Assembly (NCBI GenBank): GCA_002404115.1
Contig: DHJB01000052.1
Span: 337 to 7,411, forward strand
DNA: 7,075 bases
Direction: 5' to 3'
Source of the DNA: Microbacteriaceae bacterium UBA4731
Lineage (GTDB): Bacteria > Actinomycetota > Actinomycetes > Actinomycetales > Microbacteriaceae
Shown: piece after piece, positions 153 to 6,003 of the stretch
Numbering within the stretch: position 1 is the first letter of the stretch
Layout: every line of letters begins with the position of its first letter
Program-made: the position numbers and the translations under genes
The notes under the pieces: generated by a model
What the model saw: the letters and a program-made list of their open reading frames with translations, nothing else
The model's database searches: none
Told to the model about the DNA's origin: nothing

Positions 153-1269
153 CAGTCACGTTGCGCGGTGATTGGAACGAGAGGAGCCGCGTCCACTCGG
201 GCGAAGGATCCACGAGATGAACCCCGGACAGGGCGAGAGACGTCTCCTGAACGACGACGGCAGCCTCCATCTCGGCCAGCTTCGCCCCCAGGCAGCGGTG
301 AATGCCAGATCCGAAGGCCAGGCTGTAGTCGGTGGGCCGGGCATCGGGCCCATGGTTGCCGGTGAGTTCCAAGAGGATCTCCGATCCGGCGGGCAGGACT
401 TCTCCCCCGAGCTGGACGCTCCGAGTCGTGACCCGTCGCCAGGTGGGCACGGATGATTCCTCGGCAAGCACCCGGCGCACGGCCAGCGTTGCGCCGGCGC
501 GGGTTGCTGCCGACGCCAACGCAGGGATGCCGGCTGCGTTCGGGCTCTCGAGCAGCCGGAACAGCACGGTGCTGATGAGTTGCGAGGTGGTTTCTTGTCC
601 GGCGATCAGCAGGAAGTAACCGAGCGAACACAGTTCAGGCGTGGAGAGGCCGTGCTCCGCGAGCGATGCGAACAGGTTTCGCCGGGGTGAGGCGACGGCC
701 TCCAGTATCAGTTCGCGTAACCAACGGTAGAAATCCGCAGCGCTCTCCGCCAGGACCAACTGGCGGTCGTCATCGGGCCAGCCCCAGAACAGCTCGAGAG
801 ATTCGCGACTCCAGGCCTTCAGCCTCGCCACGTCCCGCACCGGAAGCCCGAGCATCTCCAGCATCAGGATCGCCGGAGGCCGCGCCGCCACTGCTTCGAC
901 CAGGTCGATCGGCTGGCCGGTCTCCAGCGACCGTTTCGCTTCGGTCGCCGCGGCCCGGGCGATCTCCCGCATGCGGGGTTCGATCGCCGCGACAGTCGCT
1001 GGCGTAAAGAAGCCCGACACGACACGGCGAACGCCCGAATGAGTGCCGGTGTCGTTGCTCGCCAGGATCGGCGGGAGGGCGAATTTGGCGCGCTGCAGGA
1101 TCCTGAGGCTCTGCCCGGTCAAGGGTTTCACGGCCACGAGCGCATTGACCGGGCTGAACACGTCCGGTTGACGGAGCACCTCGCGGGCGAGCATCGGATC
1201 CTTGACGACGTGATACTTCGCTTCGGCAGCATCCATCTGGACCGGGCGTCTCGTCGACTGCGCGCTCAC
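112..1269 (-). CDS. Cytochrome P450, last gene of the biotin operon (possible BioI-like role, atypical K helix)
   Basis: The product is a 385-residue soluble bacterial-type P450. Seen in the sequence: the heme-binding loop FGSGIHRCLG at residues 319-328 with thiolate ligand Cys326; an I-helix oxygen-activation motif AGQETT at 223-228; and a C-helix H77...R81 pair of the kind that contacts heme propionates. Oddities: the K-helix ExxR, near-invariant in P450s, reads R266-V-L-A269. The meander between the NHGP stretch and the heme loop is about 10 residues shorter than usual, and only about 20 residues precede the first beta/B-helix region. The start is GTG at 1269, inside a GTGA overlap with the bioD stop. 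An internal ATG at residue 12 is an alternative. By position it may supply or process the pimeloyl precursor, as BioI (CYP107H) does by cleaving acyl-ACP. That is inference; no redox partner is encoded here. P450 membership is secure, its substrate is not. Confidence 0.92.
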   Translation of the reverse strand: MSAQSTRRPVQMDAAEAKYHVVKDPMLAREVLRQPDVFSPVNALVAVKPLTGQSLRILQRAKFALPPILASNDTGTHSGVRRVVSGFFTPATVAAIEPRMREIARAAATEAKRSLETGQPIDLVEAVAARPPAILMLEMLGLPVRDVARLKAWSRESLELFWGWPDDDRQLVLAESAADFYRWLRELILEAVASPRRNLFASLAEHGLSTPELCSLGYFLLIAGQETTSQLISTVLFRLLESPNAAGIPALASAATRAGATLAVRRVLAEESSVPTWRRVTTRSVQLGGEVLPAGSEILLELTGNHGPDARPTDYSLAFGSGIHRCLGAKLAEMEAAVVVQETSLALSGVHLVDPSPEWTRLLSFQSPRNVTVTRRSAPTRRSST

Positions 1270-1949
1270 GCGTGGATCCCGGCCAGCCAGAGGCCCGCGC
1301 GAGCGCGGAAAACGTCCGGTGAAAGTGATGACGCGTCCTCCGGGATGACACCCAGCAGCGGAATTGAACCCGATTCGAACGACTGCCGATTGTGAACCTC
1401 AGCCAGGCCGGGCGTCAGCGGCCACGTGCCCAGCACCACCCCGAGCGAGGCGAGACCACGGTGTTCCAGCGCCTCAACGGTCAGTTCCGTGTGGTTCAGA
1501 GTTCCCAGGGATGGGCGCGAGACGACCACACAGCCGGCCTGCGTGCCGAGCAGCGCCGCGAGGTCGGCCAGGGTTCCGCCATCCGCATCAAGCTCCACCA
1601 GCAGGCCGCCGGATCCTTCGATGAGCACGTGGTCCACATCCGGTGCCGACCGACGAATTCGCTCTGCGTGCTCGGCCACGGTCGGAAGACGTGCGCCCTC
1701 GAGCCTGGCCGCGACAACCGGGGCAAGAGGTTCGGCCAGAACCACTCCGTCACCGGCCTCGATGTCGCCGACGAGCCGCCGTATCTCCGCGCAATCGGAG
1801 TCCCCCTGAACGGCCCCGCTCTGGCAGGGCTTGTACACGCAGACCCTCCGCCCCGCCGACAACAGGACGGCTGCGATCGCCGCCGTCGTCACTGTTTTTC
1901 CCACACCGGTGTCTGTACCGGTGATGAAAAGGAAAATGGGCAGGCTCAC
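1266..1949 (-). CDS. bioD: ATP-dependent dethiobiotin synthetase
   Basis: BioD carboxylates 7,8-diaminopelargonate with CO2 and ATP and closes the ureido ring to give dethiobiotin in the cytoplasm. The 227-residue length is normal for the family. The P-loop GTDTGVGKT lies at residues 11-19 (Lys18). The KPxQSG segment at 40-45 carries the second conserved lysine (Lys40). EGSGG at 111-115 is the switch/Mg-binding region, and RPSLGTLNHT at 145-154 matches the family RxxLGTxNHT block. The start is GTG at 1949, preceded by GAGGA (minus strand of 1956-1960) at a 6-nt spacing. The start lies inside the 4-nt GTGA overlap with the bioF stop, and its own stop overlaps the P450 start in the same way. 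All catalytic elements look intact. Confidence 0.97.
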   Translation of the reverse strand: MSLPIFLFITGTDTGVGKTVTTAAIAAVLLSAGRRVCVYKPCQSGAVQGDSDCAEIRRLVGDIEAGDGVVLAEPLAPVVAARLEGARLPTVAEHAERIRRSAPDVDHVLIEGSGGLLVELDADGGTLADLAALLGTQAGCVVVSRPSLGTLNHTELTVEALEHRGLASLGVVLGTWPLTPGLAEVHNRQSFESGSIPLLGVIPEDASSLSPDVFRARAGLWLAGIHA

Positions 1950-3103
1950 AGGCGGTCCTCAACTATCGTTCCGATGACCTCGCAGGCGCGCGAAATCTCA
2001 TGGTCGTGCAGCGTCGCGCGTGCGGTCAGCCGCAGCCGCGAGACGCCGTCGGGAACCGACGGCGGCCGGAAACACCCGATCTGGATGCCGGCTGCGCGCG
2101 CGGCCTGCGCGCAGGAGAGCGCGGTCGCCGCGTCCGGCATCGCAATCGAGCGGACGGCACCGACGGCCTGGTCCACTGTGAGTCCGGCGCGGCCGAGGCG
2201 TGAGGAAAGCCCCCCAGCCAGGGCCGTCGCGTTCGCGCGGACGGCTGCTGCGCGCCACGGTTCGGCACGGACGACCGCGATCGCCTCGAGCGCGGCAGCA
2301 GCGGAGGCGGGCGCAAGCGCGGTATCGAAGATGAAGCTCCTCGATCGATTGATCAGGTGGGTGCGCAGCCAGTCCGGGCCGAGGACGGCGCCGCCCTGGC
2401 TTCCCAACGCCTTGGACAGGGTTGCGGTCACGATGACGCTGGGATGGGCGGCCAGGGGTGTCCCGGCCACGGCCCCTCGGCCCTCGCCGAGGATGCCGAC
2501 GCTGTGTGCTTCATCCACGACGAGCATCGCGTCGTGCCGCTCTGCCAGTTCCAGCAGCTCCGGCAGGGGTGCCGTGTCACCATTCACGCTGTAGACGGAT
2601 TCTGCGACGATGAGCGCCCGCGGTTCGCGGCGACCCGACAGCAGGCGATCGGCATCCGCCACCGTGTTGTGGTCGAAAACTTCCGTGCGGGAACGGCTCA
2701 GCCGGAACCCATCGATCAGTGAGGCATGGCACTGGCTGTCGGCGACGATCAGGGTTCCAGGTCCGCCGAGGGCGGTCAGCACGCCAATGTTGGCCAGGTA
2801 CCCGGACGAGTACACCAATGCGGTGTCCATGCCGAGTAGGCGAGCCAGTTCGATCTCCAGGTGCTCATGCAGTTCGGTCGTGCCGACGACCAGGCGGGAG
2901 GACGTCGCTCCCGTGCCCCACACGGATAGCGCCTCCGCTGCCGCCTGCACGAGCCGCGGGTCGGTGGCCAGACCGAGATAGTCGTTGCTGGCCAGATCCA
3001 GCAGATCGGCGCCAGGTCTGCGCGGTGTCAGCTCCCGCGCCAGCCCCCGGCGCGTGCGCGCGGATTCTTGACGGTCGAGCCATCGTTTCATTGCGACGCT
3101 CAT
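1946..3103 (-). CDS. bioF: 8-amino-7-oxononanoate synthase (KAPA synthase)
   Basis: BioF is a PLP-dependent alpha-oxoamine synthase. It condenses L-alanine with pimeloyl-ACP or pimeloyl-CoA, releasing CO2, and is the first committed ring-assembly step. The 385-residue length is typical. Recognisable blocks are SNDYLGLA (39-46), GTGATSSRLVVGT (63-75), a stacking His126 in SQCHASLIDG, DEAHSVGILG (197-206) with Asp197 and His200, and the PLP-lysine block TLSKALGSQGG with Lys231. The ATG at 3103 sits in an ATGA overlap with the bioA stop and has only a weak purine-rich stretch before it, consistent with re-initiation by ribosomes finishing bioA. An ATG at residue 5 is a possible alternative. Related AKB ligase and ALA synthase share the fold, but the bio neighbours settle the assignment. 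Confidence 0.97.
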   Translation of the reverse strand: MSVAMKRWLDRQESARTRRGLARELTPRRPGADLLDLASNDYLGLATDPRLVQAAAEALSVWGTGATSSRLVVGTTELHEHLEIELARLLGMDTALVYSSGYLANIGVLTALGGPGTLIVADSQCHASLIDGFRLSRSRTEVFDHNTVADADRLLSGRREPRALIVAESVYSVNGDTAPLPELLELAERHDAMLVVDEAHSVGILGEGRGAVAGTPLAAHPSVIVTATLSKALGSQGGAVLGPDWLRTHLINRSRSFIFDTALAPASAAAALEAIAVVRAEPWRAAAVRANATALAGGLSSRLGRAGLTVDQAVGAVRSIAMPDAATALSCAQAARAAGIQIGCFRPPSVPDGVSRLRLTARATLHDHEISRACEVIGTIVEDRL

Positions 3104-4437
3104 TGTCGGCTCTCGCCGCGGGCCCCACCGTACACTTCGGCGATGGCGGCGACCATTCCCGCAGTCAGCACGGACACCTCCCCCGGGCTGCTGACAAAGG
3201 GCGGCATGGCGTAGACGAGGTTGCGGAACGGTCGAACCCAGACTCCGTTCCGCAGGCCGGCCCGGGTGACGGCTGCGATGTCGACCGGGCGGTCCAGCTG
3301 AATGACTCCGACGGCGCCGATCGTGCGAACGTCCTCGACCACACTGAGCTGCCGCGCCGCAGCCAGACCGGACTCGAGCCCAGCGTTCAGGCGGACGATG
3401 TTTTGCCGCCAGTCCGCGGAGAGCAACAGCTGGACACTGGCGAGTGCGACGGCGCAGGCCAGCGGATTGGCCATGAAGGTTGGCCCGTGGAGCAGCGCGC
3501 CGGCGGAACTCCGCGAGACCGTCCTGGCGACCTCGCCAGTGCAGATCATGGCTGCGAGGGTGAGGTAGCCGCCGGTGAGGGCCTTGCCGACGCAGATGAT
3601 GTCGGGCGCGACCCCGGCGTGGTCCGCGGCGAACATTTCGCCGGTGCGACCGAAGCCGGTCGCGATCTCATCGAAGATCAGGAGGAGTCCGTGCCGGTCG
3701 GCGATCCCTCGGAGCGCGAGCAGGCACTCCGGCGGGTAAATGAACATGCCCCCCGCACCCTGCAGCACTGGTTCGACGATGATGGCGGCCAACTCGTCGC
3801 TGTGCTGAGCGGCGAGCGCGGCGACCTCCTCTGCCCAGCATTCGACGTCGTCTGACGATGCCGTCGCCGCACTCGGCGGACGCGGGGCGAAGATATTGGA
3901 GGGGAGGATCCCGTCGAAGGCCGAGTGCATGCCGTCTACTGGATCGCACACACTCATGGCGGCGAAGGTGTCACCGTGATAGCCGCCGCGCACACTGAGC
4001 ATCCGTTGTCGCCGTGGGCGCCCGCGCGCCCCCTGGAACTGGACGGCGAGTTTGATCGCAACCTCGACGCAGACCGAGCCGGAGTCGGCGAAGAAGACAT
4101 GGTCCAGACCGGGTGGAGTGACCGACACCAGGAGCTCGGCGAGATCCACCGCGGGGGCGTGGGTGAGCCCGCCGAACATCACGTGACTGAACCGGCCCAG
4201 CTGCTGCGTCACAGCGTTGTCCAGGACCGGGTTGCGGTAGCCGTGAATCATGCACCACCAGGACGACATCGCATCGATGACGTCGTGGGTCTGGCCGTCC
4301 TCGCCGCGCAGGGAGAGCCTCACACCTCCCGCAGCCTGGACCTCCCACAGCGGTCCGGGTGAGTGGACAGCCGAGTACGGGTGCCACAACGAGGTCCGGT
4401 CCCGCTGGATGAGGGTGTTGGTGTCTCCACCGGTCAT
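3100..4437 (-). CDS. bioA: Adenosylmethionine-8-amino-7-oxononanoate aminotransferase (DAPA synthase)
   Basis: BioA transfers an amino group, classically from S-adenosylmethionine, to KAPA to make 7,8-diaminopelargonate. It is a class III PLP aminotransferase. Numbered from the chosen start, the protein has 445 residues. HPYS at 19-22 (Tyr21) and SSWWC with Trp60/61 match the BioA substrate pocket. GGYHGDT at 151-157 holds the PLP-stacking Tyr153. FDEIATGFGRTG at 255-266 holds Asp256, and GKALTGG at 284-290 holds the Schiff-base Lys285. The start was placed at ATG 4437 rather than an in-frame ATG at 4476. A strong GGGGAGG lies 7 nt upstream of it, homology begins just after it, and its ATG overlaps the bsaP TGA by 4 nt, as at other junctions of this operon. 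Nothing looks missing. Confidence 0.97.
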   Translation of the reverse strand: MTGGDTNTLIQRDRTSLWHPYSAVHSPGPLWEVQAAGGVRLSLRGEDGQTHDVIDAMSSWWCMIHGYRNPVLDNAVTQQLGRFSHVMFGGLTHAPAVDLAELLVSVTPPGLDHVFFADSGSVCVEVAIKLAVQFQGARGRPRRQRMLSVRGGYHGDTFAAMSVCDPVDGMHSAFDGILPSNIFAPRPPSAATASSDDVECWAEEVAALAAQHSDELAAIIVEPVLQGAGGMFIYPPECLLALRGIADRHGLLLIFDEIATGFGRTGEMFAADHAGVAPDIICVGKALTGGYLTLAAMICTGEVARTVSRSSAGALLHGPTFMANPLACAVALASVQLLLSADWRQNIVRLNAGLESGLAAARQLSVVEDVRTIGAVGVIQLDRPVDIAAVTRAGLRNGVWVRPFRNLVYAMPPFVSSPGEVSVLTAGMVAAIAEVYGGARGESRQ

Positions 4438-4670
4438 GAGGCGACCTCCCCGTGCCGGGAGCATTCCGCGCGCCATCCGAATGGATCCACCTGGACTTTC
4501 ATCCGACGGCGACAGATGCGGCAGTACCGTGGCGGCTCCATAACCAGCCTGTCGGTGCAGTCGACAGAGGAACCGCCCCCGTGCCCGGCGGCATCCGACG
4601 CTTCCCCGCAGCGCCCGCAGTAGATCGCCTGCCCAACGACGGGTTCGTTGGAAGCGTTATTCGATGACAT
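4434..4670 (-). CDS. bsaP: Biotin synthase auxiliary protein BsaP
   Basis: This small 78-residue cysteine-rich protein is encoded between bioB and bioA. The C-terminal half carries the block I recognise from the actinobacterial BsaP family (M. tuberculosis Rv1590 type): MEPPRYCRICRRRMKVQV followed by GWRAECSRHG. Six cysteines are present: C18 and C21 (CGRC), C38, C50 and C53 (CRIC), and C70, with a His at 73. They could bind a metal or an iron-sulfur cluster. BsaP is reported as needed for the actinobacterial form of BioB to convert dethiobiotin to biotin; a role in supplying or renewing its iron-sulfur cluster is a plausible mechanism, not shown by this sequence. The ATG at 4670 lies 2 nt after the bioB TAG, and its TGA overlaps the bioA ATG. 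There is no obvious strong Shine-Dalgarno, so it is probably translated by ribosomes leaving bioB. Confidence 0.9.
   Translation of the reverse strand: MSSNNASNEPVVGQAIYCGRCGEASDAAGHGGGSSVDCTDRLVMEPPRYCRICRRRMKVQVDPFGWRAECSRHGEVAS
4445..4451 (-). promoter_or_regulatory. Ribosome binding site of bioA
   Basis: On the minus strand this reads GGGGAGG and ends 7 nt before the ATG at 4437. It is the strongest Shine-Dalgarno match in the operon and lies within the last codons of bsaP. It decides the bioA start against the upstream in-frame ATG at 4476, and it may allow bioA to be translated at a higher level than pure coupling would give. Confidence 0.75.
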
Positions 4671-4672
4671 GG

Positions 4673-5719
4673 CTAGAGCGTCTTCTGCAGTTCCTTGATC
4701 GGCATGTTGAGCTCCACCAGGAGATCGAGGTCGGCTGTCGCCGGTCGCCCCAGGGTGGTCAGGTAGTTGCCGACGATGACAGCGTTGATTCCGCCCAGGA
4801 GGCCGTCGCGGGTGCCGAGGTCCCCGAGGGTGAGCTCGCGGCCGCCCCCGTAGCGCAACACGGTTCGGGGCATGGCCAGGCGGAACGCGGCGATTGCACG
4901 CAGGGCATCCTTGCCGGACATCAGCGGCTGGTTCTCCAACGGTGTTCCCGGTCGGGGGTTGAGGAAGTTGAGCGGCACCTCGTGCGGCTCGAGGGCCGCG
5001 AGTTGAACGGCGAGTTCGGCGCGCTGGGCGTTGGTTTCCCCCATGCCGATCAGGGCGCCGCAGCAGAGCTCCATTCCCGCGTCCCTCACCATCCGGCAGG
5101 TGTCCAGGCGTTCCTCGTAGCTGTGCGTGGTGACAACCTCGGGGAAGAAGCTGCGCGCGGTTTCGAGATTGTGGTTGTAGCGGTGAACACCCCACTCGGA
5201 GAGAAGGTCGACCTGCTGCTGCGTGAGCATCCCCAGCGAGCAGGCGATGTTGATGTCGACCGCCTTGTTGATGCGATCGATAGCGAATTTGATCTGGTTC
5301 ATCAGCTTGAGATCGGGGCCGCGAACGGCAGCCACGATGCAGAACTCGGTCGCCCCGGTCGCCGCCGTCTCCTTCGCCGCCTGCACCAGTCCGGGGATGT
5401 TCAGCCACACCGAGCGGACGGGCGAATCGAACAGGCCCGACTGCGAGCAGAAATGGCAGTCCTCCGGGCATCCGCCGGTCTTGACGGAGATGATCCCCTC
5501 GACTTCAACGGCGTCGCCGCAGTATTTCAGACGAACCTCGTGTGCCAGTTCCAGGGCCGCAGGAAGGCACTCGTCAGGCAACTCGAGGATCTGGAACACC
5601 TCTTCCTCGGAGAGCCCCTCGCCGCGATGCAGCACTTTTTCCCGAGCCTGCTGGAGGATCGGAATGTCTGCGGTCGGGACTGGTGGAGTCTCACTCAGCG
5701 TGTCGGCATTGATCGTCAT
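4673..5719 (-). CDS. bioB: Biotin synthase (radical SAM)
   Basis: BioB inserts sulfur into dethiobiotin by radical SAM chemistry, using a [4Fe-4S] cluster and a sacrificial auxiliary cluster as sulfur donor. The 348-residue protein has the CxxxCxxC motif [13 protein letters not shown] with Cys84, Cys88 and Cys91. By alignment to the E. coli enzyme, Cys127, Cys160, one of Cys219/220 and Arg289 are the expected auxiliary-cluster ligands, so both clusters appear intact. YNHN at 181-184 and [10 protein letters not shown] at 254-263 are further family blocks. About 30 residues precede the E. coli-type core, as is common in actinobacteria. The ATG at 5719 has a moderate AGAGGA 4 nt upstream. It is the first gene of the operon: a perfect inverted repeat at 5748-5776 lies just upstream, and bsaP follows after 2 nt. 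Confidence 0.98.
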
Positions 5720-5933: not shown

Positions 5934-6003
5934 TCGAGATTGACCGGTGCGGTCGAGATTGACCGGCGTTCCGGGCGATTTCGACCGGAACGGTCAATCT
6001 CGG
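5934..6003. repeat. Cluster of TCGAGATTGACCGG repeats forming a long hairpin
   Basis: TCGAGATTGACCGG occurs exactly at 5934-5947 and 5953-5966. A degraded third copy (10 of 14 matching) lies at 5975-5988, and an inverted 12-base copy lies at 5991-6002. Copy 2 pairs with the inverted copy: 5954-5964 with 5992-6002 gives 11 bp, then a 3-nt bulge, then 5968-5974 with 5985-5991 gives 7 bp, closing a 10-nt loop. The hairpin begins 36 nt after the stop of the C26 peptidase gene, so it could stabilise or end that transcript. No U-run follows. It resembles a dispersed intergenic palindromic repeat (REP-like), but copy number elsewhere cannot be seen here. Confidence 0.65.

Follow-up and report, generated by a model that had tools for sequence, protein, structure and literature searches.

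The window analysed here is the whole 7,075-nucleotide stretch of contig DHJB01000052.1 from Microbacteriaceae bacterium UBA4731, and its minus strand carries an operon in the order bioB-bsaP-bioA-bioF-bioD-P450 (Table 1). Our subject is the last of these genes, which encodes a cytochrome P450 without the K-helix ExxR motif, a signature of the P450 superfamily. As the original prediction had stated, the gene lies within a biotin operon, with bioB, bsaP, bioA, bioF and bioD upstream of it. Neighbouring genes overlap by 4 bases at four of the five junctions, including that between bioD and the P450 gene, and the fifth is a gap of 2 bases; these figures use bsaP and bioA starts that were our own choice, at 4670 (inside a longer open reading frame) and at 4437 (where the longest frame begins at 4476). 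Because of these overlaps and the single small gap, the genes from bioB to the P450 look like one translated unit. The P450 open reading frame (112-1269) gives 385 amino acids from a GTG at 1269, while an internal ATG gives the 374 amino acids of database entry P0001.

Table 1. Coordinates of the P450 motifs and of the biotin operon genes in the window
Feature	Position	Strand	Remarks
K-helix A263-V-R-R-V-L-A269	463..483	minus	minus-strand bases GCCGTGCGCCGGGTGCTTGCC
ExxR equivalent R266-V-L-A269	463..474	minus	Glu and Arg both replaced
T-W-R-R, residues 276-279, after K-helix	433..444	minus	conserved
I-helix A223-G-Q-E-T-T228, acid-alcohol pair	586..603	minus	conserved
Heme cysteine loop F319-G-S-G-I-H-R-C326-L-G	286..315	minus	Cys codon 292-294
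Stretch in the meander's place, residues 302-317 (LTGNHGPDARPTDYSL)	319..366	minus	16 residues
P450 gene	112..1269	minus	last gene of the biotin operon; PF00067, 38.5 bits
bioD, dethiobiotin synthase	1266..1949	minus	TIGR00347, 115.8 bits vs cut-off 83.3
bioF, 8-amino-7-oxononanoate synthase	1946..3103	minus	TIGR00858, E 4.9e-113, below cut-off (377.6 vs 426.45)
bioA	3100..4437	minus	TIGR00508, 529 bits, above cut-off
bsaP, biotin synthase auxiliary protein	4434..4670	minus	NF052237, 79.1 bits, above cut-off
bioB, biotin synthase	4673..5719	minus	first gene of the operon; TIGR00433, 342.7 bits, above cut-off

K-helix and heme motifs of the window P450

The claim that both ExxR residues are absent was borne out by the bases themselves, which read AVRRVLA, by phmmer alignments to solved P450s, which place this segment opposite AVDEVLR in CreJ, VVEEVLR in 6gmf and AAEECLR in 6ldl, and by an AlphaFold2 model in which the same residues lie within a helix (246-259 in the numbering of the 374-residue protein). 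The motif had been placed at 462-474, one base too early at its start; 463-474 is correct. No intact E-x-x-R was found elsewhere in the K-helix, such strings occurring in the window P450 only at residues 19, 91, 99 and 347 of 374, so the loss of the motif stands. ExxR was not taken here as defining a P450, CYP157 members without it having been published as P450s (PMC3599690 and PMC3990721).

The F-x-x-G-x-x-x-C-x-G cysteine-loop signature of the superfamily is present as FGSGIHRCLG, and AlphaFold2 gives the window protein a P450 fold (predicted local distance difference test, pLDDT, 88.5) in a model that was built without ligand and carries no information on heme. Just beyond the K-helix, the second arginine of T-W-R-R aligns with the arginine that usually contacts a heme propionate in P450s.

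Conservation across homologs and biotin loci

Homologs were taken as the best 120 of 605 proteins passing the E-value threshold, the window protein included, at 59-100% identity; these are the listed homologs referred to throughout. Those with names come mostly from Arthrobacter and close genera, and also from Sinomonas, Cryobacterium and Pengzhenrongella, the closest P450 from a named organism among the matches listed being that of Cryobacterium sp. PH31-O1 (74% identity). The ExxR glutamate occurs in 0/120 and the arginine in 0/120. At the first ExxR position we found H in 106, R in 8, S in 2 and G, L, Q and D in one each, and at the fourth A in 101, T in 14, G in 2 and M, S and I in one each. 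An arginine one place before the first position is present in 117 of the 120, and 112 fit the pattern R-x-[VIT]-L-[AT]-x-E-S-S-V-x-T-W-R-R. As had been proposed, the heme cysteine and the I-helix threonine are kept: AGQETT and the cysteine loop are found in 120/120. The loss of ExxR is a trait of the clade and not an oddity of one genome.

We also examined 81 rows consisting of the window and the 80 genome loci described below, from which L053 and L071 were excluded for counting ExxR. The motif is intact in two of the 79 readable rows, both from Kribbella. T-W-R-R is invariant in A1 to A4 and is found in 79/79 readable rows (genome loci and window); its variants are A-W-R-R in one Kribbella-type row (P0232) and S-W-R-R in some distant relatives.

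A sequencing error, a frameshift or a decaying pseudogene in a single genome could in principle produce such a K-helix, and nothing besides the oddity of the motif favours this. The gene keeps an open frame that overlaps bioD by 4 bases, the ratio of non-synonymous to synonymous substitution rates (dN/dS) is 0.177-0.219 between the window gene and three relatives (0.135-0.266 for 10 pairs across the family), and the same state recurs in all 120 listed homologs. This explanation, which the original prediction had named as a check on its claim, is thus extremely improbable, and it was ruled out on the recurrence and the dN/dS values.

To describe the gene neighbourhood, genome contigs were scanned and the best 80 of 183 matching loci were kept. 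Biotin genes adjoin the P450 in 80/80 of these, with bioD present in 80, bioF in 79, bioA in 78 and bioB in 77; the closest biotin gene is bioD in 75 loci and bioF in 5, and it lies no more than 300 bases away in 79. The loci fall into two orders. Type I is the arrangement of the window, bioB-bsaP-bioA-bioF-bioD-P450, and includes 8 Kribbella loci, in 7 of which bioB-bsaP is separated from bioA. Type II, bioB-bioA-bioF-P450-bioD, comprises 25 loci (L047-L071) from Arthrobacter, Salinibacterium, Knoellia and Cryobacterium. No bsaP match was found in these 25 loci, and their BioB proteins are only 31-34% identical to that of the window; the single one tested, from L047, scored above the TIGR00433 cut-off. 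In type II, a BioB that depends on BsaP may have been exchanged in nature for one that does not. A recurring neighbour in 24 of the type II loci (of 25) is a regulator gene, typed as TetR in the two cases examined, and other flanking genes recur in subsets of the genomes.

The meander and a proposed order of losses

The meander is the loop ahead of the heme cysteine and is held to be gripped by ExxR: in ordinary P450s the glutamate and arginine of the K-helix motif bind a basic meander residue, pinning the meander over the cysteine-ligand loop. The span from the preceding strand to the cysteine loop is 24-28 residues where the meander is normal (28 in 23 of 25 rows), 16 in the window protein and 10 in Kribbella. 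A distance of 54 is usual between the tryptophan of T-W-R-R and the phenylalanine of the cysteine loop, in a comparison from which P0195, L128 and L129 were dropped and among whose rows some genes are repeated; it is 32-36 in Kribbella-type proteins (119/119 readable) and 41-68 in the listed homologs. Across the window-clade and Kribbella-type listings, 0/240 proteins finish this stretch with H-x-[AST]-F-G, as a normal meander does. The normal meander is thus deleted in Kribbella, and in the window's clade a stretch of variable sequence has taken its place. Beside L116 and L117, the window protein has a short N-terminus as well.

Relatives gathered by searches across one class and several orders of genomes include P450s that keep both ExxR and the meander. 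These comprise L116, L235 and L236, with the gene order bioA-bioF-bioD-bioB-bsaP-P450, L121 (bioB-bsaP-bioA-P450), L177 (bioB-bsaP-bioA-bioF-bioD-P450), and L120 and L122, in which bioD and bioF lie some 2 to 6 kb from the P450. Kribbella-type proteins lack the meander wherever they are readable. Among the 118 scored for ExxR, 54 retain the complete motif; in the others the glutamate is replaced by D, Q, A, G, H, R, V or T and the arginine by A, Q or C. Here the ExxR pattern left P0195 and P0232 unmatched (118/120 scored; ExxR is intact by eye in P0232) and the meander pattern missed 12 more rows, a recheck making 119/120 readable. Among the 120 listed Kribbella-type proteins, 28 have no Pfam P450 label. 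Among biotin-linked rows with a short meander, L169/L179 keeps ExxR, L176 the glutamate only and L168/L178 neither residue. Elsewhere in the tree, L213 (L225; genome G1194), which lies beside bioF, has a meander shortened independently and an ExxR that reads D-V-L-R. We also observed three P450s near the biotin family, L117-L119, with ExxR and meander intact; the 8 kb or so around them gave no match to a biotin gene.

A tree was built from 73 rows, thinned at 80% identity from 434, with the K-helix and meander columns left out; L014, L053, L071, L073, P0195, L128 and L129 had been dropped before thinning. The state of the meander was scored by a pattern of our own (H-L or H-Q ahead of the cysteine loop, plus length). 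On this tree every row with a normal meander has ExxR intact (13/13 in the family, 12/12 in the outgroup), as against 3 of the 48 rows that lack one; at least 3 meander changes and 6 ExxR changes are required. L167 forms a long branch whose position is unsure, and no biotin linkage was seen for L117, L118, L214 and L217, which are among the 13 normal-meander family rows. The Kribbella and L169 states suggest that the meander was lost first and ExxR later, an order that rests on these states and not on a significant correlation. The interpretation in the original prediction was upheld in part, having missed that the trait is clade-wide, that the normal meander is lost as well, and that relatives show intermediate states.

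The following course of events would fit. Deletion or replacement of the normal meander would have left the ExxR glutamate and arginine without a partner; in Kribbella they vary freely, and in the window's clade they have given way to a K-helix with a newly conserved Arg 265 and Glu 271, which may form other contacts. These two residues co-occur, as R-A-E in 166 rows and R-T-E in 22 (one clade, unthinned, with some genes repeated). Heme would be held by the cysteine loop and its histidine, the C-helix H-x-x-x-R and the second arginine of T-W-R-R, residues that are conserved and have heme-holding roles in P450s generally. ExxR might then be a clamp for the meander and not a need of the heme fold, with an Arg 265/Glu 271 arrangement replacing the Glu-Arg-Arg triad in Arthrobacter and its kin, a tentative proposal that we consider somewhat more likely to be wrong than right. 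Within it, Kribbella and L213 would be steps in between.

Pimelate supply and known P450s

The genes of the operon cover late biotin synthesis, and the pimeloyl step is missing from them. By its gene position and the chemistry this would call for, the window P450 is most likely functional, BioI-like in supplying pimelate and of a different P450 lineage; it would cleave a long-chain acyl thioester oxidatively at a C-C bond, as BioI does in Bacillus. It shares with BioI (CYP107H1, Bacillus subtilis) a location in a biotin operon. BioI has ExxR and the meander, and in structural alignments to 3ejb, 3ejd and 3eje the window P450 is 20-21% identical to it, which leaves it outside CYP107H1 under the rule that CYP families share over 40% identity (PMC3599690). 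No BioI entry appeared among the best 60 of 308 PDB sequences or the best 60 of 609 found by profile search. Orthology with BioI was rejected for want of sequence support in these searches, and the fold match to BioI, tied with those to many other P450s, was not accepted as kinship. The closest solved relatives in both sequence and fold are CreJ (5xjn, 5gwe) and the CYP116B P450s, which have W-R-R after the K-helix in common with the window P450 but retain ExxR in the alignments; in the tree, all 12 outgroup rows combine ExxR with a normal meander, and no biotin genes were found beside those outgroup rows that were fetched with flanks.

Taken as a whole, the best explanation, and one that we consider probable, is a working P450 that would supply the pimeloyl thioester for BioF, its ExxR having been freed after loss of the meander. 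Several observations weigh against it. The distance from tryptophan to cysteine loop exceeds the usual 54 in 71 of the 120 listed homologs (55-68), so that the meander there is replaced and not shortened, and calling it absent rests on our own pattern; these long stretches make the clamp role of ExxR less probable. An independent-pairs test of the link between meander and ExxR was not significant (median p 0.5), because there are only two or three independent meander losses. A comparison of seven reference loci showed no ferredoxin or acyl carrier protein gene recurring next to the P450. Finally, a lack of BioC is not peculiar to genomes with this P450. In 15 such genomes BioC is above its cut-off in 0 and BioW is found in 0, which gives the pimelate role weak support, because 0/159 genomes of the Cryobacterium genome's order have BioC above cut-off, with or without the P450; its absence was dropped as proof of the P450's function.

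Within that order, bioD is present in 11 of 159 genomes and this P450 in two of the 11 (both E under 1e-150), four further genomes matching the P450 at 1e-68 to 1e-78, which is the outgroup level. In the nine bioD genomes with neither this P450 nor BioC above cut-off, pimelate must come from elsewhere. The P450 could thus be active in another biotin-adjacent step, such as the making or trimming of an uncommon dicarboxylate or the modification of an intermediate of biotin synthesis, with pimelate supplied from another source or from outside. A parallel is offered by MkpG, called BioI-homologous and proposed to act in a biotin-like antibiotic pathway of Streptomyces (the alpha-methyl-KAPA pathway) by cleaving an acyl chain for a BioF-like enzyme; MkpG belongs to secondary metabolism and is likened to the window P450 by description only (PMC13336041). 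We consider this alternative unlikely, given that the pimeloyl step is the one missing from an operon with the late biotin genes and that the P450 accompanies biotin genes in 80/80 loci (best of 183) and in both operon orders. As a separate observation, a bioD match at E 1e-12 is lacking in 148 of the 159 genomes, many of which are probably biotin auxotrophs.

A P450 fold that is no longer an oxygenase and is kept as a structural or activating partner would also agree with the absence of both ExxR and a normal meander, and with a weak hit to the glycosyltransferase activators derived from P450s (TIGR04515, 37.3 bits vs a cut-off of 343). Set against this are AGQETT and the cysteine loop in 120/120 and again 120/120 listed proteins, the invariant propionate-binding residues, and stronger matches to enzyme families, likewise below cut-off (for instance CYP119, 76.5 bits vs 680), which make it very unlikely. 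Of the two outcomes first envisaged for the variant, a compensated fold is accordingly the better fit, in view of the conserved cysteine, AGQETT, the heme-propionate residues, dN/dS well below 1 and the confident P450 fold; nothing was found in support of an enzyme losing monooxygenase function.

CYP157 of Streptomyces had been cited as a precedent, and it is one as a P450 with an incomplete ExxR. In PMC3599690, CYP157 proteins keep the glutamate and change only the arginine (EVLW, EQILW, EQSLW) and are described as conservon-linked. The loss in the window's clade therefore goes further, to R266 and A269 in the window P450 with no ExxW-type motif and with glutamate in 0/120 listed homologs, and the upstream genes in the window are biotin genes, no search aimed at conservon genes having been made. 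Searches of open PubMed Central papers listed no description of a P450 from a biotin operon without ExxR. What is new is a P450 clade with neither of the ExxR residues nor a normal meander that is fixed beside biotin genes, CYP157 being the published precedent. It points to an actinobacterial lineage of biotin P450s apart from Bacillus BioI, which we did not find described in the same literature.

ExxR is used both to prove that a sequence belongs to the P450s and to explain how these proteins hold heme. One genome survey counts proteins with just one of the two motifs as fragments or pseudo-P450s (PMC6408508), a rule that would discard the whole window clade. The series from ExxR with meander, through ExxR without it, to neither, combined with the gene's place in a pathway that has an easy growth test, makes the purpose of ExxR directly testable.

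A BioQ-like operator motif has five matches at two mismatches in the window where 1.9 would be expected; the one closest to bioB lies some 240 bases upstream of it, and nothing is claimed from these matches. Further upstream, a peptidase C26 gene (6038-6850, minus strand; PF07722 match) resembles gamma-glutamyl-GABA hydrolases, with an NCBIfam score far under cut-off (64.5 vs 266 bits). Between this gene and bioB, at 5935-6002, stands an inverted repeat with 32-base arms, 84% complementary and 4 bases apart, which is possibly a terminator or another repeat element.
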